Positions 8,608-32,082 of a stretch of 32,082 nucleotides of DNA are shown here, piece after piece (positions within the stretch are counted from its first letter, which is position 1; the number at the start of each line of letters is the position of its first letter). Location: NCBI GenBank assembly GCA_012840485.1, contig DULG01000035.1, forward strand, positions 1 through 32,082. The letters run 5' to 3'. Position numbers and translations under genes: made by a program. The notes beneath the pieces are model-generated. The model was not told where the DNA came from. It did not search any database and saw nothing but the letters and a program-made list of their open reading frames with translations. The stretch is from Clostridia bacterium (GTDB taxonomy: Bacteria > Bacillota > Thermoanaerobacteria > Thermoanaerobacterales > Thermoanaerobacteraceae).

Positions 8608-11178
8608 ATATTTACATATCTAAAAATCTCTATTAGGCAAAGATGGCCGGTATTTCTATTTATTTTAATAACCTTGTTTATTTTAAGTTTAGGATATTCT
8701 GGAGTTAAGAGACTAACAGAGACTGTGAGCATTAAAACGAGGGAGGACTTACAGCATCACTGGCGCTGGCAGTATGACATACTGGTTTATCCTAAGGACA
8801 GCCAGACCTATCAGGCACTGGGAGATGGTTGGGTTGCGCCTCAGACTCCACTGGCAAGCTATGGAGGGATATCTTTTGAAGATTTAGAGACTATACGCAG
8901 TATACCTGGGGTTGAAGTGGCTGCTCCTATTTCTATTTTGGGATATTTTAAATACGATTCCATTCCTGTAAGTTATGAAGATGCACAAAAAGGGAAAATT
9001 TATGAAGTTAAATATCAAATGAAAGCCTTTGATGGACTTAAAAATGTTTTACTTAAAAATTACTTAGGATATGACCAGTATGAGCCCGTGGAAGTTGGGA
9101 ATAAAGTAGATGAATTTTTTTCTCATACCAAAGTAGAAATGAAAGATTATGTAATTTTTCAAAATGCCATTGTCCCGCCAGGTATGCTGTTTAGAACTGA
9201 CAATGAATTACTTCTTGTAGCTGTAGACCCAGAAAGTGAAGACAAGCTTTATAACTTGTCTCAAGCGGTTGTCGAAGGGGATGACTTGCGCTTTGCAGAT
9301 TTAAAAATTGAAAAAGGAATAGGGGAGCCCGTGTTACCTATATTAGTCTTAAAAGATCAGGGATTGGATGTGGAGGAGTCTATGGAAGTATCTTTAGTAT
9401 CTGTTCCTAATAATATTGATTTATGGGACATGGGTAGTAATGCAATTGATTATTTAAAGGAAAGTCCCAAAAAAATTGTCGCAAGTTATAAGTTAAATGC
9501 CTATTCTCCTGAGTGGAGGTACAAATTTGCTCATATTGAGCTTAAAAATGATAAAGTAGAAGTTAGACCGCATATTATGGGAACTGCGTGGCTTGGGTTG
9601 GTTAGATATTCGCCTCTTCATTTTAAATTTTTAGGATATGAAGAAAGTGGCATACCTCTTCTTTATGTGGAAGGTCACCCGAGAGAAAAGAACCCCTTTT
9701 TTGGCAATGCAGATGAGACACAAGTTTACAGAAAAATGCTTGAAAAAGATGAAGATATTACTTTTGGATTAGATGTAGTTGGAGTTTATGATGCCCACAA
9801 GATTAAGCCTAATTACGCCTCAAGCTGGAAGCCTGGTGACCCTGTAGATATATACACACCTCACCACAGTATGATTATTGCAGATGGGGAAGGTAATCCT
9901 GTAAAGCCACGCCCTCAAATACCTTTGCCCATGAAAGACTCTTATTATACTGGCGGACCAGAAGCAATAACTGTACTTACTAAAGATGTAGCAAAGCTTT
10001 TTTACAAAGATAACCCACCTATTTCTGCGGTAAGAGTTGTTGTAAAAGGGGTGGAAGAAAGAAGTCCAATAAGTCAGAAAAAGATTGAGCAAATAGCCAA
10101 GGAGATTATGGATAAAACTGGTCACAAAGTTGAAATTATGCTAGGGGCTTCCCCTACAAAAGTTCATGTGAAATTGGGAGGGGCGCAAAAAGACGATATA
10201 GGAATGGTGGAAGAAGGTTGGATCAAAGAAGGTGTCAGCTGGGCTATAGAAGAGAAAGTTTCTAATGCAAACAAGTGGCTTTTTATCTATTTACTTGTGA
10301 TAATATTCTTTTTGCTGTATACAGTGATAACTCACAGTTTGATAAATAGGTCAGTGGAATTTGCACAGCTTCGCACTATTGGTTGGTCCAGGAAAAGGAT
10401 TATTTATGGGTTTTCTCTGGAAGTCATCAGCTTAACTATTTTTTCACTTATTCCAGTGTTATTCTTCAAGGCGTCTTATGGCAGTTTTACATGGAAAGAC
10501 ATTGCTTTTATCGGCACATTAAATGGAGCAATTATTGCTACTGGATATTTTTCTGGCAGTTACCGCAGTTTATTGCTTTCGCCGCGAATGGGGCTTTCTG
10601 GTGAGAGAACTGGAGATGGCAGAAGGCTTATCTCTGTAAGAGGATTTTTTACCTTCATCTTCCACCAGATGATGCGAAGGCCTTTGCGCTTTGGGCTACT
10701 GGTTTTATCAGTGCTACTTAGCACTTTGATGGTAATACTTTTTGTTTCAACTCAGTACAGTCTTTCAGAGTTTTTATATCTCTCGTTTTTAGGAGAGGTA
10801 GTTGATTTACATCTTTTGCCTTATCAAAAGGCGTTGTTAGGATTGGGTGTAGGTTTGACAATTGCGGTAGTTGTTGTGCTTTTGTGGCTTAATTTGTGGG
10901 AAAGGCAGGAGGAATTTGGACTGCTCTGGGCAATTGGATGGCCTAGGGGAAGGCTTACGCTATATACTCTTATTGAGGCAGGTACTATTGGAAGCTTAGG
11001 CGGTATTTTAGGTTCTTTGTCTGCTTTGATCATACTAAAACTTTTTTCTACACTTTGGCTGCCTCCGTGGGTGGTGGTAGTTGCTGTGCTGCTACCTATG
11101 GCTTTAATGATGGCGGTTACAGCGATTGTAATGCATTTTATTAGGCTTGCCTCTGGCATTAAGAGAGGAGGGAAATAA
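8608..11178 (+). CDS. Large FtsX/MacB-type permease, paralogue, probable ATA start
   Basis: The frame is open from TAG 8602-8604. The only good ribosome site, AAGGGGGG (8593-8600), puts initiation at ATA 8608, giving 856 aa with an N-terminus (IFTYLKISIRQRWPVFLFIL) that matches the paralogue at 5834. The first canonical start, TTG 8674 (834 aa), has no ribosome site and would cut away half of the first membrane helix. Paralogy is clear throughout: EVAAPISILG versus EVAAPVSIIG, and PPISAVRVVVKG versus PISAIRVKIKG. Layout is one N-terminal helix, a ~500-residue outer domain, then two FtsX blocks with VEFAQLRTIGWSRKRI and EEFGLLWAIGWPRGRL. It is co-translated with the lipoprotein gene (TAATG overlap). 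Confidence 0.85.
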   Translation: MFTYLKISIRQRWPVFLFILITLFILSLGYSGVKRLTETVSIKTREDLQHHWRWQYDILVYPKDSQTYQALGDGWVAPQTPLASYGGISFEDLETIRSIPGVEVAAPISILGYFKYDSIPVSYEDAQKGKIYEVKYQMKAFDGLKNVLLKNYLGYDQYEPVEVGNKVDEFFSHTKVEMKDYVIFQNAIVPPGMLFRTDNELLLVAVDPESEDKLYNLSQAVVEGDDLRFADLKIEKGIGEPVLPILVLKDQGLDVEESMEVSLVSVPNNIDLWDMGSNAIDYLKESPKKIVASYKLNAYSPEWRYKFAHIELKNDKVEVRPHIMGTAWLGLVRYSPLHFKFLGYEESGIPLLYVEGHPREKNPFFGNADETQVYRKMLEKDEDITFGLDVVGVYDAHKIKPNYASSWKPGDPVDIYTPHHSMIIADGEGNPVKPRPQIPLPMKDSYYTGGPEAITVLTKDVAKLFYKDNPPISAVRVVVKGVEERSPISQKKIEQIAKEIMDKTGHKVEIMLGASPTKVHVKLGGAQKDDIGMVEEGWIKEGVSWAIEEKVSNANKWLFIYLLVIIFFLLYTVITHSLINRSVEFAQLRTIGWSRKRIIYGFSLEVISLTIFSLIPVLFFKASYGSFTWKDIAFIGTLNGAIIATGYFSGSYRSLLLSPRMGLSGERTGDGRRLISVRGFFTFIFHQMMRRPLRFGLLVLSVLLSTLMVILFVSTQYSLSEFLYLSFLGEVVDLHLLPYQKALLGLGVGLTIAVVVVLLWLNLWERQEEFGLLWAIGWPRGRLTLYTLIEAGTIGSLGGILGSLSALIILKLFSTLWLPPWVVVVAVLLPMALMMAVTAIVMHFIRLASGIKRGGK

Positions 11179-12254
11179 TGAGAAAGCTTTTAAGACCTAT
11201 TTTTGTTACGATTTTGACTCTGGTGTTGCTTTTTTTGGCCTCGTGTAATCCAAAGCCTGAAATTGAGAAAAAAGAACAAACTCCAAAAAATTTATATACA
11301 ATTCCTAAGGCAGAAAAATTAGTAGAAATTACACCTATCTTTAAAGAGGCTGACCCTTTTATTCAAGGGGTAGAACGTTTGAGCGCTTTTTTGGGGCATC
11401 CTTTGACAAAAGAGATGGCAGAAAGGGTTTATAGTACTCCAAAGCAGGATTATGTGGCTTTGACTGATATACTTCACTTTCTTTCTGAAGACGGGCTTTT
11501 TCTTATTTACAAACCAATTGGAGTTGATGAGTTAAAGGAGGATATTTTAAAAGGAAGCCCTGTTTTAATTGAATTTTCTTTTAGCGGTACAAGTAAAGAT
11601 GCTGGAATTGTTTATGGTTTAGATGACGACAATCTGCATTACTACCTTCTGCCGGACATGAAAGAAAGAACTTATCCCATTGAAAAAGTGAAAGAGAAGA
11701 TAGAAGAAGGACAGCCTTTAATTGCTGTGTTTAAAGCAGAGGATAAATCTAAATGGGCAGAAGAAATGGAAAAATCAGATATATACCTTAGGCGCTGGGG
11801 ACAGGACGTCTATCAAAAGAAAGACCCTGACGCTTATAAAGAGTATATAAAGACTATTGAAAGGCTAAAATGGAGGATAGAAGATGAGGACAGAAATCAA
11901 ATTTATGCGTATTATTACATCTTTTACGATAGAAAGCCTGAAAAGGTTAAAAATATTATTTTGAAATCCTATGAGGAGAGTGAATATTTGCCCTCATCAC
12001 AAGAACTTGCTTTTATGTTATACCGCCTGTTAGGGGATAAAGAAAAAGCAGATCATATTGCTTCTCATATGAATATATCTTCCGAACAGCTTTCCTTTTA
12101 TCAGGATGAGACATTGCTTCAATTGGGATATTATTACTTAGAAGAAGGGGATATTAAAACGGCAAAGTCAATTTTGGAGTTTTTAAAGGAGAGAAATCCA
12201 GATTATCCTGGACTTAAAGAGGCTTTGAAAGAAGTTTCTAAAAAAGAAAGGTAG
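11178..12254 (+). CDS. Lipoprotein with degenerate C39-like domain and TPR-like tail
   Basis: The 358-aa protein starts at ATG 11178, sharing one base with the permease stop. A signal with lipobox LASC places the lipidated Cys at about residue 23. Residues ~60-180 resemble a C39 peptidase-like fold (PFIQGVERLSAFLG, then KGSPVLIEF, then DAGIVYGLDDDN, then YPIEKVKEKI). The family's catalytic Cys is absent in the first motif and the His of the HxxxVxGxDD motif is Asp here, so it should bind rather than cut. The remaining ~170 residues are helical and TPR-like (ELAFMLYRLLGDKEKADHIA, LQLGYYYLEEGDIKTAKSIL). Anchored outside the membrane beside the permease, it is a plausible substrate-recruiting subunit. 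The C39 resemblance is by eye. Confidence 0.72.
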   Translation: MRKLLRPIFVTILTLVLLFLASCNPKPEIEKKEQTPKNLYTIPKAEKLVEITPIFKEADPFIQGVERLSAFLGHPLTKEMAERVYSTPKQDYVALTDILHFLSEDGLFLIYKPIGVDELKEDILKGSPVLIEFSFSGTSKDAGIVYGLDDDNLHYYLLPDMKERTYPIEKVKEKIEEGQPLIAVFKAEDKSKWAEEMEKSDIYLRRWGQDVYQKKDPDAYKEYIKTIERLKWRIEDEDRNQIYAYYYIFYDRKPEKVKNIILKSYEESEYLPSSQELAFMLYRLLGDKEKADHIASHMNISSEQLSFYQDETLLQLGYYYLEEGDIKTAKSILEFLKERNPDYPGLKEALKEVSKKER

Positions 12255-20682: not shown

Positions 20683-23094
20683 ATGACCTTAAACAAGGGT
20701 GAGTATGTAAAATTTTTTAAAGAGGTTACAGGATTTGAACCCTATGATTTTCAAATAGCTATAGCGGAAGAAATATTTACCGGAAAAAATGTAATAATGC
20801 AGGCGCCTACTGGCTCAGGTAAAACTTGGGCAAGTATTATGCCATTTTTGTTTGCTAATTATAAAGGGATTAATTTTCCAAAGAAATTGATATATAGTTT
20901 ACCTTTAAGAGTACTAACTAATAGTTTATATAAAGATGTAACTGAAAGAATAGATAAAATATTTAATGGACGTATAAAAGTAACTATTCAAACAGGCGAA
21001 AATAATAATGACCCCTATTTTTTGGATGGCGATATAATATTTACAACAATAGATCAAAGTTTAAGTTCCTTGTTGTCAATACCTTTTTCCTTATCGAATA
21101 ATCAGCGTAATATAAATACCGGGGCAATAATTTCTTCTTATTTAATATTTGATGAATTTCATTTATTGGATATAAAGCGCTCATTATCTACTTTGATAAA
21201 TATTTTGACCAGACTTAATAATATAACACCATACTGTCTTATGAGTGCTACACTTAGTGATAAATTATTAGATAATTATTGTAGCAAATTAAATGCCTGC
21301 AAGATATCTGTTAAGAAAGAGGAAATTACAAAAATTAAAAGTCAGAAAAATAAGATAAGACAAGTTTTTGTAAAAGATACATTAATTAATGCAGAAGAAA
21401 TTATTAGAAATCATATCAAGAAAACAATTGTAATATGTAATACTGTAGAGGCATGCCAAAATTTATTTTTAGACCTTAAAAATAAATTTAATGAAGAAGA
21501 GTCATTGAATAATATTAAACTTTTATGTATTCATTCGCGATTTAGCTCAAAAGATAGAAAAATCAAAGAAGAATTAATAAAAAAGTATTTTAGTAAAGAA
21601 AGTGAAGAAAGTGTAATATTGGTTTCAACACAAGTTATAGAGGTCGGACTTGATATAACCTGTGATGTAATGCATCTTGAGATTTCTCCAATAAATTCTT
21701 TTCTCCAAAGGATTGGTAGATGTGCAAGATATGAAGGAGAGAAAGGAAAAATTTTTGTATACGATGTAAGTAAAAATGATAAAACAAAACCTTATTTGCC
21801 TTATGATGATGAATTGTGCGTTAAGACTTTGGACAAATTGAAGAGCATAGGAGAGGGTATAGATATTGATTATCAAAAAAGTGAATTTTTGATAAATGAT
21901 ATTCTTACTGTTAAAGAATTAGAAGATTTCAGTTATATTGAGGAAGGAGAGCATACGAAGTTTAATGAAATAGTAGATTGTTGGATAAAAAATGAAAAAG
22001 GAAATGCCAGTCGATTAATCAGAGATATAGATACAATTAATGTATTAGTGGTCCAAGATATAAATCTATTAGAAAATCCATATATATATGATGCTATTCC
22101 AATAAACAGGTATACATTAATTTCAAAATTGAAAAAAGTTGTGAAAGAAGATGAAGAAGACTGGCTGGTAAGGACTATAGAAGAGTCTGTGTTTGATGAT
22201 GAAGATTTATTTGGAAGGTTTAGTTATCCTCAAATAGCACTTGATGATATACGATTAAAAGTTGAGAATAGAGTAATTTTAAATTCTAAATATGTATTTT
22301 ATGATGATGATATTGGATTGAATTTTATGGGTGTTGGCAATCGAGAAATTCTAAAAATAGACAAGCCTAAACTAAAAGAGGACTACATAATTACTAAAGA
22401 TACTTATGAAGAACATATAAGGTATATGATGGTGGCTTTTGATGATTTATTTAAAGATAAATGTACTTATATATTTTTAAAATTAAAAGAAAGAATAGAT
22501 TTAAAGTACGATATGGAAGAATTATTGAGGTTTATTATAATAATGCATGATTATGGTAAGCTAAATATTGGCTGGCAAGCATCAGCCTGTAAATATCAAA
22601 ATGAAAAAGGAAATTATGAGAAAGGCGAATTATTAGCGCATACTGATTATAATCCCAATATTGATGTAGATAATAGACCCAAATTACCTAATCATGCGGG
22701 GATTGGTGGTATTGTAGCTGCAAGTTTAGCAGGTGATATATTACATTATGAGGTTTGTATAGCTATTTTAAATGCGATAGCTAAGCATCATTCAGTAAAG
22801 ACTGAATCTTCTATAAAATATAGAATCATAAATGAAGGCAAGAAAAAAACTTTAGAATTAATAAAAAATTATTGTCCTAACTTGTATAGAGATATTGATA
22901 AATCAAACGAATTTTTCTTGGAGGGAGATGAACAGTCTTTTGATGATTATGCAGTTAATTTTAATAAATTTGGTATTGATTATGATGCAATATTATATTT
23001 TCTTTTTGTTAGGATACTTAGGATTTGCGACCAAAAATCATTTACTTATAAACAAAAGATGATGAAAGGGGGTGACGGTAGAGATGACAGATAA
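20683..23094 (+). CDS. cas3: Cas3 helicase-nuclease with C-terminal HD domain
   Basis: This 803-aa protein should unwind and degrade DNA marked by Cascade. The superfamily 2 helicase comes first: Walker A APTGSGKT (41-48), DEFH box (157-160), MSAT (187-190), VIEVGLDI and QRIGRCAR (from 342). The HD nuclease follows at the C-terminus with all metal ligands visible: His578, His622-Asp623 in HDYGK, His671 in LPNHAG, and His702-His703 in AKHHS. This order is reversed from the usual Cas3, where HD is N-terminal; C-terminal HD is documented in a minority of type I systems. ATG 20683 has AAAGGAG ahead. The gene overlaps cas8 by 11 bases. Both activities look intact. Confidence 0.95.
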   Translation: MTLNKGEYVKFFKEVTGFEPYDFQIAIAEEIFTGKNVIMQAPTGSGKTWASIMPFLFANYKGINFPKKLIYSLPLRVLTNSLYKDVTERIDKIFNGRIKVTIQTGENNNDPYFLDGDIIFTTIDQSLSSLLSIPFSLSNNQRNINTGAIISSYLIFDEFHLLDIKRSLSTLINILTRLNNITPYCLMSATLSDKLLDNYCSKLNACKISVKKEEITKIKSQKNKIRQVFVKDTLINAEEIIRNHIKKTIVICNTVEACQNLFLDLKNKFNEEESLNNIKLLCIHSRFSSKDRKIKEELIKKYFSKESEESVILVSTQVIEVGLDITCDVMHLEISPINSFLQRIGRCARYEGEKGKIFVYDVSKNDKTKPYLPYDDELCVKTLDKLKSIGEGIDIDYQKSEFLINDILTVKELEDFSYIEEGEHTKFNEIVDCWIKNEKGNASRLIRDIDTINVLVVQDINLLENPYIYDAIPINRYTLISKLKKVVKEDEEDWLVRTIEESVFDDEDLFGRFSYPQIALDDIRLKVENRVILNSKYVFYDDDIGLNFMGVGNREILKIDKPKLKEDYIITKDTYEEHIRYMMVAFDDLFKDKCTYIFLKLKERIDLKYDMEELLRFIIIMHDYGKLNIGWQASACKYQNEKGNYEKGELLAHTDYNPNIDVDNRPKLPNHAGIGGIVAASLAGDILHYEVCIAILNAIAKHHSVKTESSIKYRIINEGKKKTLELIKNYCPNLYRDIDKSNEFFLEGDEQSFDDYAVNFNKFGIDYDAILYFLFVRILRICDQKSFTYKQKMMKGGDGRDDR

Positions 23095-24889
23095 AAAGTA
23101 TTATGTATTGAAAGAAAGTGGAACATATTCAAATGCGCTGGAGGCCTATGGATTAGCTGAATTGATTTTAGGGCTTACTCATCAGAAGGCAAAAGTATCA
23201 ATAATTGATAAAGGCATTTATTATGAACTTAATGTAAAAGAAATGGAGCTTTCTGAAATTAAATACTTTGATTTATTTCCTTATCTAAAGAAAAAAGATG
23301 ATAAGGAGGCGATAGAAAAAGGTATTAAAAATTATATTGATTTGGACGAAGAAAAAGAGAGAAAAAATCGTTATAATGATTATCTTAAAAAAATAAATGA
23401 AGAAAGAAAGAAAATAAAAAATTTACCTAATGCAAAACCCATATTAGCTGAATTAGATAAAAAAATTGAAGATTATGAAGATAAGCCAATAAGAGAAATG
23501 GATATAATAACAGGGGTTAATCAGTTTAAGGCACTCGATATGTATAAAAAAGCATATTTTAATTTATACAGCAACAAGGATAGTTTTCAAAATATTATTG
23601 ATGTGCTATTAAAATTATATTCTGATACAACTAATAACATTGAAGAAGCAAAGGCAACAATATCGGATTTAAAAAAGAAAAAGAAAATAAAAGACATAAA
23701 AGAAGTAAATAGTTTACAACTTTATAATCCTTCAATGGTTAAAGGGGCACATCCTTCAAAGAGCAATGATATAACTCCAGAACCCGTGGATGGATTTTGG
23801 TTGCAGGAATGTCTAAAAATTGCCGGAAGTTTTAATGCTATGGTTATAAAACCTGTACAAATAGCTAAACAAAAATGGGACAATAAAATCTATGTATTTG
23901 ATGTAAATAATTTGGATTGGGATAAAAGCAAAAAAATATTTAACGAATTCAAGAGATTTTTAAAGGGGAACACATCTATAAGATTAGACATTAACTCTAT
24001 TCTTTTAATGTCAAAAGAATTAATCCAACATAGGGAAGAGTATAAAAGCAGTAAAAGTTTTTTAAAAAAATATCGTCCTCATGATGAGATAAAAGGATTT
24101 TATGCAGTTTATTTTAAAAATATGGGGAATGCTAATTCTCCCACCAATATTTCTTTCCTTGAATTGCCTTTATTTATAGAGATAAATTCATATAAGGATG
24201 CAAAAGACTGGATAGAAATAATTGATGAACATTTGAAGATTATCAATAATATACGAAATTCTATTTCAGAACAAGATGAAAGTGGCAATATAATTTCTTT
24301 ACTTCAAAAGTATAGACAATTTTTAACGACATCGGATATTGATTATTTTTATGACTTCATTGGTCAATATTCAATCTTTCTCATGGAGCAAATTGCAAAG
24401 AAAAATTATTTTACTAAGCCTTTCAGTGAAAAATTAATGGAGGTGTTTTTATTGAAAACTGATAATAGAATATCAGAAATACTACAGAATCAAGGTTTTA
24501 GAAATATCGCCAAGGCCATACGTAAATCTACAATCTCAGAACAGTATGCGAAGAGCAAAGGGCAGCAAATGTATGATATCAAGTACGGACTTGCTCAAGA
24601 ACTGTTGAGAAAGTCAGCCTATAAAGAAGACTTGATAGAATTTTTGTCAGAATTTATTGTTTCTTATAATCAAGAAACAGCCAGAATGGTTGAGAAAAAT
24701 AAAGGAAAGGCTAGAGCTACAATAAAACAACAGGATTTAGAAGATTTAGTAAAATTAATAGATGAATATGATAATCCATCATTGATAGGTAAATTATTAT
24801 GCGCTTTTGGATATTCACTTGATAGAAAAGAAAAAGAAGATGAGCCGGTAGAAGATGAAAATAATGAATTTGATGGAATTCAGGATTAA
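23084..24889 (+). CDS. cas8: Cas8-family large subunit of the Cascade complex
   Basis: The protein has 601 aa from ATG 23084, 11 bases behind AAAGGGGG; GTG 23072 overlaps that site. Position and size fit the large subunit, which reads the PAM and holds the R-loop. The N-terminal part (YSNALEAYGLAELILGLTHQ) and the charged middle are not close to any subtype I can name with certainty; a Cas8a1/Csx-type or divergent Cas8b is likely. The last ~145 residues form a separate all-helical block (ISEILQNQGFRNIAKAIRKS, then YDIKYGLAQELLRKSAYKED) of small-subunit type. An internal ribosome site precedes exactly that block. No zinc finger is seen. Confidence 0.85.
   Translation: MTDKKYYVLKESGTYSNALEAYGLAELILGLTHQKAKVSIIDKGIYYELNVKEMELSEIKYFDLFPYLKKKDDKEAIEKGIKNYIDLDEEKERKNRYNDYLKKINEERKKIKNLPNAKPILAELDKKIEDYEDKPIREMDIITGVNQFKALDMYKKAYFNLYSNKDSFQNIIDVLLKLYSDTTNNIEEAKATISDLKKKKKIKDIKEVNSLQLYNPSMVKGAHPSKSNDITPEPVDGFWLQECLKIAGSFNAMVIKPVQIAKQKWDNKIYVFDVNNLDWDKSKKIFNEFKRFLKGNTSIRLDINSILLMSKELIQHREEYKSSKSFLKKYRPHDEIKGFYAVYFKNMGNANSPTNISFLELPLFIEINSYKDAKDWIEIIDEHLKIINNIRNSISEQDESGNIISLLQKYRQFLTTSDIDYFYDFIGQYSIFLMEQIAKKNYFTKPFSEKLMEVFLLKTDNRISEILQNQGFRNIAKAIRKSTISEQYAKSKGQQMYDIKYGLAQELLRKSAYKEDLIEFLSEFIVSYNQETARMVEKNKGKARATIKQQDLEDLVKLIDEYDNPSLIGKLLCAFGYSLDRKEKEDEPVEDENNEFDGIQD
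24452..24889 (+). CDS. cas11: Predicted internally translated Cas11-like small subunit
   Basis: Inside cas8, in the same frame, GGAGGTG (24439-24445) is followed after 6 bases by TTG 24452, which would initiate MKTDNRISEILQNQGF. The product is 145 aa, all helical, and equals the C-terminal block of Cas8. It is known that several type I systems (I-B, I-C, I-D) make their small subunit Cas11 from an internal start in the large-subunit gene. The site here is as strong as those of the neighbouring full genes, and TTG starts are common in this window. No separate cas11 gene exists in the operon. Expression itself is a prediction. Confidence 0.7.
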   Translation: MKTDNRISEILQNQGFRNIAKAIRKSTISEQYAKSKGQQMYDIKYGLAQELLRKSAYKEDLIEFLSEFIVSYNQETARMVEKNKGKARATIKQQDLEDLVKLIDEYDNPSLIGKLLCAFGYSLDRKEKEDEPVEDENNEFDGIQD

Positions 24890-24910: not shown

Positions 24911-25876
24911 ATGGGTAAAAACTTTATTTCTTCATTGTCAATTTGCGGAGAATTGGGACTCAGTATGCATTCATTAAATAATGAAGGAGGAGAAGGAAAT
25001 CAAGTTTTAACAAGGGAAGTTACAATTGTAAATGAAAAAGGTAGGACTTTTACTGTAAATGCTGTTAGTGGAGATATGTTAAAACATATACAAGCTGAAC
25101 ACTTGTATTATATATCAATAGAAAAAGGACTTCCTCTTTGTGAAAAGTGCAAGGTTTTTGATGCAAATAGGATAAGTGGCGACAAGACTTTTACGGAGGA
25201 AGTAAAAAACAAAAAGGACGAAGAAGTTTTAGATATGTTGATAAATAGATGTGTTATAGATGATATGGAGGGTATCTTAATTACTAATAACAATAGAAAT
25301 TTACCGAGGAAGTCAGCAGCAGAGTTTGGATGGTTAATAGGAATACCTGAGAAAGTAAAAACGGATACATTTTTTCATGTTAAGTTAGTGGCAAATGCAG
25401 GAAGTAAAAGTGAAGATGAGTCTGCAAATCAAGGGCAAAATATATTTCATAGGCCTGCTAATTCTGGAATTTATGCTTTAGTATCTAATTATGATATATA
25501 CAGAATAGGTTATAATGAGATATCAAGAACCTACGCTATTGATAGCACTCAAAGATACGAAAGATATAAAGCCTTTTTGCAATCTATAATGTACACATTT
25601 GTCAAACCCAATGGTGCTATGAGAAATACCCAAGATCCCCATATTATTTCTTTTAAAGGAGTTATTACAATTTCAAATAGTACAGTTCCTGCTCCAACAA
25701 TAAGTCCATTAAATGATACATATATAAATGAGATTAAAACTATTGCAGAAAATATTAATAAATTAGAGAAAAATGTAATTAGGGTAATAGAATTCAATGG
25801 TTTGGCAGAATTTACTGAAATTATGACAGATTTAATACAAAATTATGAACCATATGAGTTGGGAGCAAATAATTAG
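24911..25876 (+). CDS. cas7: Cas7 backbone subunit, Cst2/DevR family
   Basis: The protein has 321 aa and starts at ATG 24911 behind AAGGAG. The opening FISSLSICGELGLSMHSLNN, then EGGEGNQVLTREVTIVNEKG, and AVSGDMLKHIQAEHLYYIS are characteristic of the Cst2/DevR branch of Cas7, which packs along the crRNA as the Cascade backbone. Further family features include NRNLPRKSAAEFGWLIGIPE and a fixed GQNIFHRPANSGIYALVSNY. It sits 21 bases after cas8 and 21 before cas5. This branch of Cas7 is usual in type I-B (Tneap-like) loci, the best clue to the subtype. Confidence 0.92.
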   Translation: MGKNFISSLSICGELGLSMHSLNNEGGEGNQVLTREVTIVNEKGRTFTVNAVSGDMLKHIQAEHLYYISIEKGLPLCEKCKVFDANRISGDKTFTEEVKNKKDEEVLDMLINRCVIDDMEGILITNNNRNLPRKSAAEFGWLIGIPEKVKTDTFFHVKLVANAGSKSEDESANQGQNIFHRPANSGIYALVSNYDIYRIGYNEISRTYAIDSTQRYERYKAFLQSIMYTFVKPNGAMRNTQDPHIISFKGVITISNSTVPAPTISPLNDTYINEIKTIAENINKLEKNVIRVIEFNGLAEFTEIMTDLIQNYEPYELGANN

Positions 25877-25897: not shown

Positions 25898-26608
25898 ATG
25901 TTTCTTGAAGCTGTTTATAAGCCGACTTCTCTATTTTCACTGAGAAGAAGTGACGCAACAAATCCTGCTGCGAAATCTTTGATAGCTCCTTCTCCGTATT
26001 CAATTAAAATGGCTTTGATTAATGCAGCAATAACCTTTAAAAGTTTTGATGACAATATATTTGAAATGATTAAAAATTTAGAAATACATTATAATCTTCC
26101 AGATTACATATGTATAAATAATTGCTTTGTTAAAAATCAAAGTAAATATGAGATAAAAACTAAAAAATCGGATGTAGATTTGGAAAAGATTGAAGGTCTT
26201 GCATTTAAGACAACAATTGGGTTTAGAGAGTATGTCTACTATAGTGATTTGATAAAAATTTTGATAAGGGTAAAAAGAGAAGAAAATATAGATTTTCTAA
26301 AATCATTGCTAATGAGGATAAATTATTTTGGGAAGAGAGGAAGTTTCTTCCAATTTATTGAAGCAAAAGAATATATTGATAATGAAAGACCTTCGGGATA
26401 TAGTTATATTTTTGATGATGCAGTATTAAATAATTATAACCATAATATGATAATTTTTAAAATGGATGATGTTGATAAAAACGCTAAATTTGATAATATG
26501 AATTCTTATTCAAAAGAGAAAGCTATGAGAGTTAGCAAAATATATTGTTTTGAATATGAGCAATATAGGGCAAATAAAAATTTTACTTTACTAAGGAAGA
26601 TAAAATGA
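25898..26608 (+). CDS. cas5: Cas5 subunit of Cascade
   Basis: The protein has 236 aa from ATG 25898 with a GAAAGGGAAG-type ribosome site. The N-terminus FSLRRSDATNPAAKSLIAPS followed by PYSIKMALINAA is the RAMP-fold start typical of Cas5 proteins next to Cst2/DevR-type Cas7. Cas5 caps the 5' handle of the crRNA and touches Cas8. The C-terminal half is less conserved. It is the last of the interference genes before an 86-base gap with a strong hairpin. Confidence 0.88.
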   Translation: MFLEAVYKPTSLFSLRRSDATNPAAKSLIAPSPYSIKMALINAAITFKSFDDNIFEMIKNLEIHYNLPDYICINNCFVKNQSKYEIKTKKSDVDLEKIEGLAFKTTIGFREYVYYSDLIKILIRVKREENIDFLKSLLMRINYFGKRGSFFQFIEAKEYIDNERPSGYSYIFDDAVLNNYNHNMIIFKMDDVDKNAKFDNMNSYSKEKAMRVSKIYCFEYEQYRANKNFTLLRKIK

Positions 26609-26694: not shown

Positions 26695-27186
26695 ATGGAT
26701 TTGGTAACTGGTACAGAAATAAATTATTATTTTGTATGTAAACATAAGCTATGGCTTTTTACTCATGGCATAAATATGGAGCATAATTCTGATTATGTGG
26801 ATATAGGAAAAGTACTTCATGAAAAAAGCTTTCAGAGGGAAGATAAAGAGATCCTTCTTGATGGACGTGTAAAAATAGATTTTGTAAAAAATCAATTGGA
26901 AATACATGAAACTAAGAAGAGTAAAGCAATAGAAGAAGCGACGAAGTACCAAGTTTTATACTATATTTACTATTTGAAAATGAAAGGTGTGGACAAAGTT
27001 ACAGGAGTTATACATTATATGGATAACCATTCGAAGGAGGAGATTACTCTTAGTGGACAGGATGAGAATAAAATAAAGGAACTAATTGAAGAAATCAACA
27101 AAATAAAATTAATGGATAAACCACCGGCTAAAGTAAAAAGTAAAATTTGTACAAAATGCAGTTATTATGAATTGTGCTTTAGTTAG
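26695..27186 (+). CDS. cas4: Cas4 nuclease of spacer acquisition
   Basis: The protein has 163 aa and starts at ATG 26695 behind AAGGTGA. The iron-sulphur cysteines are complete: Cys15 in FVCKHKLW and Cys152, Cys155 and Cys161 in the C-terminal CTKCSYYELC. The RecB-type core shows GKVLHEK, the acidic residue in DGRVKIDFV, the IHETKKSK motif and QVLYYIYYLK. Cas4 trims prespacers and fixes PAM side and orientation together with Cas1. It opens the adaptation half of the operon, 11 bases before cas1. Confidence 0.93.
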   Translation: MDLVTGTEINYYFVCKHKLWLFTHGINMEHNSDYVDIGKVLHEKSFQREDKEILLDGRVKIDFVKNQLEIHETKKSKAIEEATKYQVLYYIYYLKMKGVDKVTGVIHYMDNHSKEEITLSGQDENKIKELIEEINKIKLMDKPPAKVKSKICTKCSYYELCFS

Positions 27187-27197
27187 AAGGTGATTTT

Positions 27198-28190
27198 ATG
27201 AAAAGAAGCATATATATAAATACTAATGGACGACTCAGTAGAAAAGACAATACCATTTACTTAGAAAGTGAAACTTATGGGAAAAAGCCTATCCCAGTAA
27301 ATAATGTACAAGAATTGTTTTTATTTGGTGAGATTGACTTAAATACAAAAGCAATTAATTTTTTAGCACAAAATAATATAACAGTTCACATTTTTAATTA
27401 TTATGGATATTATACGGGAAGCTTTTATCCACGAGAGCATCTGCCTTCGGGTTTTTTGCTAGTAAAGCAAGTAGAAAAATATAAAGAGGAGCATGAAAGG
27501 CTCAAAATTGCAAAGGAAATTATTAATGGTGCCAGTCATAATATTTTAAAGAATCTCAAGTATTATGCAAATAGAAAAGAAGGATTAGATGAATATGTTG
27601 AAAGGATAGAAAATGAAAGGAAAAATATAAAAGATGCTAAGACTATAAACGAACTCATGGGAGTTGAAGGTAGGATTAGGAATATATATTATAGTGCTTT
27701 TGAAACAATAATTGAGGGGAAATTTGAATTTAAAAATAGGACAATGAACCCTCCGGATAATCCCATAAATGCCTTGATTTCTTTTGGTAATTCTATGATG
27801 TATTCTATAGTTCTTACAGAAATATACAATACTCAGTTAAATCCAACTATAAGTTATTTACATGAGCCGGGTGAAAGGAGATTTTCTTTAAGCCTTGATA
27901 TAAGTGAAATTTTTAAGCCAATAATTGTAGATAGGATTATTTTTAGTTTGATAAATCAAAAAATGATAAGAGAAGAACATTTCGATCAAGAATTAGAAAT
28001 GTGTTATCTGAATGAGAAGGGGAGAGTTATATTTCAGAGAGAATTTGAAGAAAAATTAGGCACCATAATAAAACATCCAAGACTGAACAGAAGTGTAAGT
28101 TATAGAAGGCTTATAAGACTTGAATGTTACAAGCTTATAAAGCATTTGTTGGATGAGGAACAGTATGAATCATTAAAAATGTGGTGGTAA
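27198..28190 (+). CDS. cas1: Cas1 integrase
   Basis: The 330-aa protein starts at ATG 27198 with AGAAGGTGA ahead. The metal site of the Cas1 family is visible as Glu157 (GVEGRIRNIYY), His222 (SYLHEPG) and an acidic residue in LDISEIFKPIIVDR (Glu237 by spacing). The N-terminal beta domain shows VQELFLFGEIDLNTKAINFL, then AQNNITVHIFNYYGYYTGSF. Cas1 with Cas2 inserts new spacers at the leader end. It lies one base before cas2, so they are co-translated. Nothing suggests inactivation. Confidence 0.97.
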   Translation: MKRSIYINTNGRLSRKDNTIYLESETYGKKPIPVNNVQELFLFGEIDLNTKAINFLAQNNITVHIFNYYGYYTGSFYPREHLPSGFLLVKQVEKYKEEHERLKIAKEIINGASHNILKNLKYYANRKEGLDEYVERIENERKNIKDAKTINELMGVEGRIRNIYYSAFETIIEGKFEFKNRTMNPPDNPINALISFGNSMMYSIVLTEIYNTQLNPTISYLHEPGERRFSLSLDISEIFKPIIVDRIIFSLINQKMIREEHFDQELEMCYLNEKGRVIFQREFEEKLGTIIKHPRLNRSVSYRRLIRLECYKLIKHLLDEEQYESLKMWW

Positions 28191-28191
28191 T

Positions 28192-28455
28192 GTGTATGTA
28201 CTTATAGTTTATGACGTTGAGGAAAAAAGGGTCGCAAAAGTAAATAAATTTTTAAAGACCTATTTGAACTGGGTACAAAATTCTGTTTTTGAGGGGGAAT
28301 TAACAGAGGCTCAATTAAACAGAATTATCTTATGGTTTAAAGGACATTTGGATTTAAAATGTGATTCCGTTTTAATATATACTGCCAGTTCTGAAAAGTG
28401 GCTATCTAAAAAGATTATTGGAGTAGAGAAAAACTCTACGGATAATATTTTATAA
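28192..28455 (+). CDS. cas2: Cas2 adaptation protein
   Basis: The protein has 87 aa and starts at GTG 28192, one base after the cas1 stop. MYVLIVYDVEEKRVAKVNKF is the ferredoxin-fold opening with the conserved Asp8, and WVQNSVFEGELTEAQLNRI is the usual second motif. Cas2 forms the central dimer between two Cas1 dimers. The length is normal. Confidence 0.96.
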   Translation: MYVLIVYDVEEKRVAKVNKFLKTYLNWVQNSVFEGELTEAQLNRIILWFKGHLDLKCDSVLIYTASSEKWLSKKIIGVEKNSTDNIL

Positions 28456-28474: not shown

Positions 28475-29230
28475 ATGAGAATAAGATTGACACTATTGCC
28501 GGAAGAAAAGAAAAGTCTAAATATAAACTATAATTACTTTTTATCAGGATGGATATACAATACTTTAAAAAAAGCAAATAAAGAATACGCAGAAGAGCTC
28601 CACGCAAAAGGATATAGTTATGGAAAAAAAGTCTTTAAATTATTTACTTTTTCTCAACTGCGTAGTAAAAACCTTAAGATAGTTAATGAAAATATAATGT
28701 TTTTAGATAAGACATACTTATATATAACTTCTCCTAAAAAAGAGTTTTTGTTAAATTTTGTAGGAGAAGTCTTAAATAATGATGTTCTAAAATTGCAAGA
28801 TTATGAGTTTAAGATTGAAAGTGTAGAAGTACTAAAAGAACCAGAGTTTAATAATGAAGAAAATAAATTTATATGTTTATCTCCAATTGTAACTTCTACA
28901 GCTGTAGAAGTCGATGGTAAAAGAAAAAGTGTAAATTTACCTTTGCATCACCCGAGATTTGTAGAGAATTTAAAAAACAATCTAATTGAAAAATATTACG
29001 TGCTTTACAATACATTACCAGATAATTTAAGTCTTAATATTAATTTTGACATGGAATATTATTCACAAAAACCAAAGGGTAAAAGGACAAAATATAAAAA
29101 TGTTTATGTTCGGGGATATATGGTACCCTTTACAATGTCGGGAAATATTGAACTAATCAAAGTGGCATATAATTGTGGTATGGGAGAGAAAAATAGTGCA
29201 GGGTTTGGAATGATACAAAAAATAAGATGA
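28475..29230 (+). CDS. cas6: Cas6 pre-crRNA endoribonuclease
   Basis: The 251-aa protein starts at ATG 28475 with GAGGGGATAAG ahead. The C-terminal glycine-rich loop NCGMGEKNSAGFGMIQ is diagnostic of Cas6. His43, in LHAKGYSYGKKVFKLFTFSQ, is in the usual place of the catalytic His. Cas6 cuts each repeat transcript 8 bases before its 3' end, which would leave the handle AUUGAAAU on crRNAs. The gene ends the operon, next to the array, instead of heading it as in many type I-B loci. Confidence 0.93.
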   Translation: MRIRLTLLPEEKKSLNINYNYFLSGWIYNTLKKANKEYAEELHAKGYSYGKKVFKLFTFSQLRSKNLKIVNENIMFLDKTYLYITSPKKEFLLNFVGEVLNNDVLKLQDYEFKIESVEVLKEPEFNNEENKFICLSPIVTSTAVEVDGKRKSVNLPLHHPRFVENLKNNLIEKYYVLYNTLPDNLSLNINFDMEYYSQKPKGKRTKYKNVYVRGYMVPFTMSGNIELIKVAYNCGMGEKNSAGFGMIQKIR

Positions 29231-29296: not shown

Positions 29297-29466
29297 AAAT
29301 TTATAATATAACGTTTTCTATTTCTCGGGAGGAAACAGGTTTTTAAACAAATGAATTATTATACATTTTATTGTGCGATTTTATTTTGCCTAGGAGATTG
29401 TAAAATAGCCAATGTTATGATAAAGTAAACTTGAATAAAAGAAGTATTATCATGCAATTTTCATGG
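29297..29466 (+). promoter_or_regulatory. CRISPR leader
   Basis: This AT-rich, gene-free stretch lies between the cas operon and the first repeat. It is placed on the correct side: repeats read plus-strand with the ATTGAAAT handle at their 3' end. TATGAT near 29415 could be a -10 box, but no good -35 stands 17 bases ahead. Confidence 0.6.
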
Positions 29467-32082
29467 GATTTAATCTAACCATAGTGGAATTGAAATTCTT
29501 CATCAAGTTCAACATTTTCAAGGTCAAGTAAGATTTAATCTAACCATAGTGGAATTGAAATGAAAATGATTGAAGAAGCTTCAGCCAAGGACGCAAGATT
29601 TAATCTAACCATAGTGGAATTGAAATGGATAAGAAAGGATGATTTTATGAAAGAAGATTTGAGATTTAATCTAACCATAGTGGAATTGAAATAAGCACCA
29701 ATGGAAATTACAGAAGAAGCAGTTGCAAAGATTTAATCTAACCATAGTGGAATTGAAATAAGAAGTTCTTCAAAGCTTGCTTGAAATTCAGTTTCCGATT
29801 TAATCTAACCATAGTGGAATTGAAATTACCTTCCGACCTCCCTCTGTCGGAGCCATTCCTCGGATTTAATCTAACCATAGTGGAATTGAAATAAAATCCG
29901 TAGGCTGGTAGTGGTGGCCTCATCACAAGATTTAATCTAACCATAGTGGAATTGAAATGGATTAGAGGTTATGACCTTGAAGTGGTAAGGTTCGCGATTT
30001 AATCTAACCATAGTGGAATTGAAATCGAGGTCAAGAATTGGGCCTAACAATGTTATTACCGGATTTAATCTAACCATAGTGGAATTGAAATTGGGGAGCT
30101 GTGGGAGGACAGAGGAGACCTCGAAGGATTTAATCTAACCATAGTGGAATTGAAATTTAAAAAACAGGGCATCATATCCCCTGTCTTCACCCGATTTAAT
30201 CTAACCATAGTGGAATTGAAATTTTTCTTATTGCCTTCCCTGTATTCCACCAGCACTTGATTTAATCTAACCATAGTGGAATTGAAATTGCCAATGGAAA
30301 CTCCGGGTAATAAGGCCGTAGCCATGATTTAATCTAACCATAGTGGAATTGAAATATTTCCTGCAAAGACATTTTTAAGAAAACTCAAAAGGATTTAATC
30401 TAACCATAGTGGAATTGAAATAAGGAACGACTGATTATGTATACTTCATTTCGCGACGATTTAATCTAACCATAGTGGAATTGAAATGAACACACATCTG
30501 GACCAGGCTGTCCTGAATAAATTTCTGATTTAATCTAACCATAGTGGAATTGAAATATATATCCATGATCCGGACGTTTTGTGGCTTATTGAGATTTAAT
30601 CTAACCATAGTGGAATTGAAATAATATTTCATTGGCTATAGCTGTAGCTTCTGCTGCGCGATTTAATCTAACCATAGTGGAATTGAAATGTTCAGGCGAC
30701 GCTTCCGAGAGTCTCTGGTTCTCTCGATTTAATCTAACCATAGTGGAATTGAAATAGGAGAACTGGCAAGAGGGACTGTTCTCGCATTGAGGATTTAATC
30801 TAACCATAGTGGAATTGAAATGTTCTCTGTTTAAGATAGTGTCTCTCAATTGGAGGGATTTAATCTAACCATAGTGGAATTGAAATACAGCAAGAGCTTT
30901 CAGGTTAAGCCCTCCTAGTTTATGATTTAATCTAACCATAGTGGAATTGAAATTTATTTCTTTACCCTCTACAGTGTGAATTTCTGCAAGATTTAATCTA
31001 ACCATAGTGGAATTGAAATGTATCTCACTCCATCCGGGCGCTGCTAGGATGTTGGGATTTAATCTAACCATAGTGGAATTGAAATGTTTAAAGACGGCAA
31101 AGGCTTAAAAATATCCATGACCGATTTAATCTAACCATAGTGGAATTGAAATCGAGGTCAAGAATTGGGCCTAACAATGTTATTACCGCGATTTAATCTA
31201 ACCATAGTGGAATTGAAATCTTTCCAGTCGTCTATGATGTATTCCCGGCCGTCGAGATTTAATCTAACCATAGTGGAATTGAAATGAGAACAACTCAACA
31301 AAATTGCTTTAGAGTATGGGAGATTTAATCTAACCATAGTGGAATTGAAATTTAAGGAACAGCTTGACACCGGTTTTGTTGGAACCACGATTTAATCTAA
31401 CCATAGTGGAATTGAAATAAATCTGCCGCAATGTACTTTTTGGGCAGACGATAAGATTTAATCTAACCATAGTGGAATTGAAATATCAAATATTGACCAA
31501 TGGTTAAATAGCGCGGCTGGATTTAATCTAACCATAGTGGAATTGAAATGGTATTCGTCATATGCTGCGGCTCTGCTTACCCAGGATTTAATCTAACCAT
31601 AGTGGAATTGAAATGAGAGCAAAGCCTCCACAGTCTGGGAAGTAGCCAGGATTTAATCTAACCATAGTGGAATTGAAATTGCGCTGCTGGCCTCTCAAAT
31701 GATCACCAAGGCGGCGATTTAATCTAACCATAGTGGAATTGAAATGCGGGAATGACCGGGCTGAAACCTATATGAATTAATAAGATTTAATCTAACCATA
31801 GTGGAATTGAAATTCTTTAGGTTCTATGTCTTTTGTATTTACGAGAACGATTTAATCTAACCATAGTGGAATTGAAATATAATGGAATTTGATCCAGATA
31901 CCAGAGCAGTAAAAGATTTAATCTAACCATAGTGGAATTGAAATTTATACGTTGCTGTTATCATTTTCTGCACCTCTTTCTTGATTTAATCTAACCATAG
32001 TGGAATTGAAATCTGGTTAAGGTCTACTTCAGGAGCTATCTCATCAAGTTGGATTTAATCTAACCATAGTGGAATTGAAATC
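29467..32082 (+). CRISPR. CRISPR array, at least 40 repeats, truncated by the window end
   Basis: Forty copies of a 30-base repeat (begins GATTTAATCTAACC, ends GTGGAATTGAAAT) run from 29467 to 32081, with 39 spacers of 35-39 bases, mostly 36. By eye all forty repeats are identical, and no degenerate end repeat is reached, so the array continues beyond the window. The repeat folds weakly (CCA-TAG-TGG only), as is usual for type I-B. Processing 8 bases before the repeat end would give the handle ATTGAAAT. Spacer 9 (30026-30061) and spacer 26 (31153-31189) are the same sequence. The minus-strand frames with recurring FNSTMVRLN are only translations of the repeat. Confidence 0.99.
30026..30061 (+). 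repeat. Duplicated spacer, copy 1 (copy 2 at 31153-31189)
   Basis: The spacer beginning CGAGGTCAAGAATTGG and ending GTTATTACCG occurs again at 31153-31189, where it is one base longer at its 3' end (ACCGC). Sixteen other spacers lie between the two copies. Confidence 0.95.

Follow-up and report, generated by a model that had tools for sequence, protein, structure and literature searches.

A conserved internal ribosome site in a bacterial cas8a gene and its predicted product, a free Cas11a small subunit

The cas8a gene of a type I-A-like CRISPR operon in a Clostridia bacterium very likely specifies two proteins, Cas8a itself and a free, internally started Cas11a of 145 aa; no protein, ribosome-profiling or mutant data are at hand for this reading. 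In the whole 32,082-nucleotide stretch of DNA analysed here (the window), we observed a ribosome site within this gene, selection on the nucleotides of that site among homologues, and a match of the downstream product to Cas11a in sequence and fold, and no separate gene for the small subunit was found. The relevant features are as follows.

20683–23094, forward strand: cas3, helicase with an HD domain at the C-terminus (NCBIfam cas3_core 2.4e-54; cas3_HD 2e-11 at 597–750)
23084–24889, forward strand: cas8a, large subunit, 601 aa (PADLOC Cas8a 2.5e-60; ATG at 23084 with its own Shine-Dalgarno sequence)
24439–24445, forward strand: internal Shine-Dalgarno (SD) site GGAGGTG inside cas8a (read directly; duplex −13.2 kcal/mol)
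24452–24889, forward strand: predicted cas11a, 145 aa, in frame within cas8a (TTG start; stop in common with cas8a)
24911–25876, forward strand: cas7, DevR/Csa2 family (Pfam DevR 3.4e-68; PDB 7r21/7tr6 chain named Cas7a, 8e-5)
25898–26608, forward strand: cas5a (PADLOC Cas5a 7.5e-84)
26695–27186, forward strand: cas4 (NCBIfam cas4 3e-24)
27198–28190, forward strand: cas1 (NCBIfam cas1_HMARI 1.7e-145)
28192–28455, forward strand: probable cas2, 87 aa (from size, sequence and place between cas1 and cas6; no profile basis)
28475–29230, forward strand: cas6 (Pfam Cas_Cas6_C 1.6e-30; Cas6_I-A 5.5e-19)
29466–32082, forward strand: CRISPR array (repeat of about 30 nt, period 65–69 nt, reaching near the contig end)

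The operon around cas8 is thus a complete type I operon, cas3-cas8-cas7-cas5-cas4-cas1-probable cas2-cas6 with a long CRISPR array, in a genome of the same family as Thermoanaerobacterium. NCBIfam and Pfam gave no name for the window Cas8. In PADLOC, Cas8a was the only Cas8 family that it matched, and this was the single match in the genome; judged from this profile, the protein is Cas8a, the signature protein of subtype I-A. Among the criteria for membership of subtype I-A, those of Cas8a, Cas5a and a Csa2-type Cas7 are all met. Two others are not: a separate csa5/cas11a, which is common in archaeal I-A and is not a signature, and a split cas3. Type I-A has been described with split cas3′ and cas3′′ (PMC10212523), and the window has a single 803-aa Cas3 in which the helicase precedes the HD domain. 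Because a separate csa5/cas11a is lacking, the operon was filed as a variant, assigned to subtype I-A by its signature gene.

The internal site consists of GGAGGTG, the spacer TTTTTA (24446–24451) and TTG (24452–24454), with the stop codon at 24887–24889. The first-pass annotation had reported this pair as 6 bases apart, in frame and opening a 145-aa product, which proved exact, and had placed it where a helical C-terminal block begins; it does lie immediately upstream of that helical domain. The ATG at 24437, which is also in frame, overlaps GGAGGTG and lacks an SD of its own. The GGAGGTG/TTG pair is the strongest internal site of cas8a (−13.2 kcal/mol; the next is −5.6). Against a background of the 22 window genes (6462 internal codons), not of the whole genome, two in-frame starts have an SD duplex at least as strong as −13.2 kcal/mol, 24452 (−13.2) and 11988 (−13.9). 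Since an equally strong internal site thus occurs elsewhere in the window, the cas8a site in the single sequence does not go beyond chance, and it is alone weak evidence. TTG is a weak start codon, which counts against internal translation, and so does the predicted mRNA structure, in which part of the site region is paired, with ordinary strength (z −1.0). An internal promoter was also considered and rejected: promoter-like matches were near chance (10 found versus 6.6 expected). The TTG at 11988 lies within a 358-aa ORF (11178–12254) and would give a product of 88 aa.

The comparison of homologues is more informative. Along with the window Cas8a, the comparison took in 30 homologues (31 sequences in all): 24 of the same phylum and six encoded on plasmids, five cyanobacterial and one of Deinococcus gobiensis. 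Their identity to the window Cas8a in the full alignment is 21–31%, save for one close relative, Thermoanaerobacterium saccharolyticum NTOU1 (L002), at about 88–89%; for most of the non-cyanobacterial members it is 23–31%. All 26 non-cyanobacterial members, the window included (25 of its phylum and the Deinococcus), carry an in-frame ATG, GTG or TTG with an SD 13–24 codons upstream of the AxAIR motif; the SD duplexes range from −8.0 to −14.6 kcal/mol and the predicted internal products from 127 to 163 aa. For 22 of these 26, the 20-codon window before AxAIR is unequalled anywhere else in the ORF, and in 11 of 12 deep representatives the conserved site outranks every other internal site (binomial probability about 6e-14, at 5% each). 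The SD sequence, the register and the start codon vary among the clades (GGAGGTG-TTG, TAAGGAGG-ATG, AAGGGGGT-ATG, AAGGTTGGTGA-TTG and GGGAGGGTG-ATG; also AGGAGG with GTG), which, from the alignment, is as would be expected if the function, not the protein sequence, were kept; the amino-acid sequence at the site also varies. The Cas8a tree is deep, and because its branches are long, bases kept merely by shared ancestry are a poor explanation. In the near relative L002, the SD is identical to that of the window and ATG stands in place of TTG, so that persistence of the pair in close relatives, named beforehand as a test, was borne out there. This test was limited to L002 and L003, both of a sister genus, because no other genome sampled from the window's genus has the gene.

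To separate the nucleotides from the protein, synonymous codons were shuffled with the protein sequence kept. For the 12 deep lineages (5000 shuffles), the combined p was 1.1e-10, the per-sequence p values being modest (0.0006 to 0.22). When the shuffle test was slid along the gene in 109 windows, significance was reached only over the site, and the best p off the site was 0.09. The position of the shuffle-test window was chosen after an initial view of the alignment. Scrambled anti-SD decoys of equal composition lowered p too (best 1.4e-6, median 0.014), because the region is generally purine-rich; part of the shuffle signal is therefore general purine richness. With the true anti-SD, p is lower than with the best decoy by four orders of magnitude. 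Two clades also show a peak of synonymous identity at the site (0.67 versus 0.40, and 0.73 versus 0.42), which is absent from the other clades. On these sequence comparisons the verdict is decisive: the SD/start pair is conserved beyond amino-acid constraint, and far beyond chance across the homologues, which is the outcome of the alignment check that had been set beforehand. Two criteria for an internally translated Cas11, an in-frame start with a ribosome site towards the 3′ end of the gene and conservation beyond amino acids, are thereby fulfilled.

The downstream product had been taken in the first-pass annotation for the Cas11 small subunit, and both the profile and the predicted fold agree. 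In PADLOC, the 145-aa product hits the Cas11a profile (3.6e-6), and so do 17 of the 30 corresponding pieces of the homologues. A genome-wide search with this profile gave its sole match inside cas8; consistent with the earlier claim that the operon has no other small-subunit gene, none was found there, nor by profile in the genome. No standalone Cas11a/csa5 was found among 398 genomes of the phylum, the profile being weak for this group and a very diverged copy not excluded. AlphaFold, run on the single sequence, models the product as a bundle of helices (pLDDT 77). Foldseek before realignment was weak, its top match being 9cro_I of type I-A Cascade (E 1.8). After realignment, the top match was 7tr6_E (108 aa; Z 9.1, rmsd 3.0, 97 of 108 residues), followed by chains of 9cro, 9crq and 9crp (Z 7.7–7.9). 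All four come from type I-A Cascade structures and are 108–126 residues long, and the best unrelated Z was 4.7. Z alone falls short of the usual mark for helical bundles, and the matched chains were taken for the small subunit on the grounds of length and complex, not of a chain name. Sequence searches of solved structures, with either the C-terminal profile or the full Cas8a profile, gave spurious matches only, and the link to the type I-A structures rests on the fold and PADLOC. The fold criterion for a Cas11 small subunit, a helical bundle like that of a small subunit of known structure, is satisfied, and a Cas11a-like nature of the C-terminal part of cas8a is supported by the profile and the predicted fold.

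From these results the following mechanism may be proposed. The 3′ quarter of cas8a would be read twice from one mRNA. Ribosomes starting at the ATG at 23084 would produce full-length Cas8a, whose C-terminal domain would be a Cas11-like helical bundle, and others would bind GGAGGTG and begin at the TTG at 24452, giving the free 145-aa Cas11a. Several free copies, together with the C-terminal domain of Cas8a, would form the belly (minor filament) of type I-A Cascade, where free Cas11a would stand in for the Csa5/Cas11 protein that archaeal I-A systems encode in a gene of its own, and the belly would steady the displaced strand of the R-loop. That Cas11a is produced, in how many copies, and what role it has (its presence in Cascade and the need for it in interference) are inferred.

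The same C-terminal domain could instead be a Cas11 domain merely fused to Cas8a, an arrangement known from types I-F and I-G, the SD and start being the relic of a once separate csa5 gene that was joined to cas8. The domain is Cas11-like and forms one ORF with cas8, as this explanation has it; a relic would decay, however, whereas the site persists in deeply diverged lineages in several SD registers and is conserved beyond amino acids, and we consider the explanation unlikely. The location of the site just upstream of the helical domain would also suit an SD-like sequence that makes the ribosome pause and so aids folding, without any initiation. Such a pause needs no start codon, yet all 26 SD-using homologues have an in-frame ATG, GTG or TTG at workable spacing, and TTG or GTG is used where the residue is not Met; we give this possibility very little credence. 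Neither a relic nor a pause accounts for an SD and an in-frame start that are both kept while the register drifts.

Least credible, and scarcely to be entertained, is that the pair is due to chance or is a by-product of a conserved protein motif. The equally strong in-frame site at 11988 is the one point in favour of it, against which stand the protein-preserving shuffles with their sliding control and the variable amino-acid sequence at the site. Internal initiation yielding a free Cas11a remains the preferred explanation.

McBride et al. (2020) reportedly described internal in-frame translation of Cas11 from cas10d or cas8 in types I-D, I-B and I-C. Such translation is documented for these types (PMC11899642, PMC7684278, PMC10212523), in which the Cas11 belly is built with the C-terminal domain of the large subunit (PMC11096372, PMC7684278, PMC11899642). 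The features that the window has in common with them are an SD and a start towards the 3′ end of the gene for the large subunit, a shared stop, a small helical product, and the absence of a separate cas11 gene; here, in contrast, the host gene is the cas8a of a type I-A-like operon. In archaeal type I-A, Csa5 (Cas11a) comes from a separate gene (PMC4141822, PMC4005679). The window product resembles it in profile match and predicted fold and would take the same belly position, but its gene lies inside cas8a. In types I-F and I-G the small subunit is fused (PMC13199841), whereas the window additionally has a conserved internal translation start. Papers up to 2026 give type I-A a distinct cas11 gene and internal translation to I-B, I-C and I-D (PMC13199841, PMC11899642), and the passages on Cas11 in the 2025 classification are silent on internal translation (PMC12669027). 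A literature search, which did not cover all primary Cas11 papers, gave no account of type I-A Cas11 being translated internally.

The first-pass annotation, which left the Cas8 family unnamed, had suggested that it may extend the phenomenon; the family being Cas8a (I-A by PADLOC), internal Cas11 translation is very probably extended from I-B, I-C and I-D to bacterial I-A, protein-level proof being absent. Internal translation is probably the normal route to Cas11 in bacterial I-A (the window's phylum, Deinococcota and, without an SD, Cyanobacteriota). If so, a separate csa5 would be confined to archaeal I-A, and genes for the small subunit would have shifted between the gene-in-gene and the separate state within one subtype. 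Gene-in-gene Cas11 would be common to four subtypes, annotation pipelines would be overlooking a core subunit in bacterial I-A, and reconstituted bacterial I-A Cascades could fail without supplied Cas11a, just as the reconstituted Cascade of a type I-B system failed unless Cas11 was supplied (PMC13199841). The internal start of the type I-B system of T. maritima did not work in E. coli (PMC13199841).

The cyanobacterial plasmid homologues all (5 of 5) have a start codon at the site without an SD. Because their cas8 likewise starts without a strong SD, these data are not clear either way. These plasmids (L032, L033, L035, L036 and L037) carry a type I-A-like operon in which cas8 is annotated merely as 'hypothetical protein'; four of the five were typed as conjugative, and in L032 and L033 cas8 comes after a csx19/RAMP module. 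No relative was found in viral contigs. Two frameshifted copies were also seen. In T. saccharolyticum NTOU1, an upstream A run of cas8a contains a frameshift (L002:3110-3130), possibly a homopolymer sequencing error, and the internal cas11a frame is intact. A second cas8a copy of one genome (L022 and L023; G145:C23:9153-10243) has a mid-gene frameshift and keeps the internal ATG and GGAGGT. Finally, two 36-base spacers in the window's CRISPR array are identical (30026–30061 and 31153–31188, 1127 bases apart), which suggests a duplication within the array.
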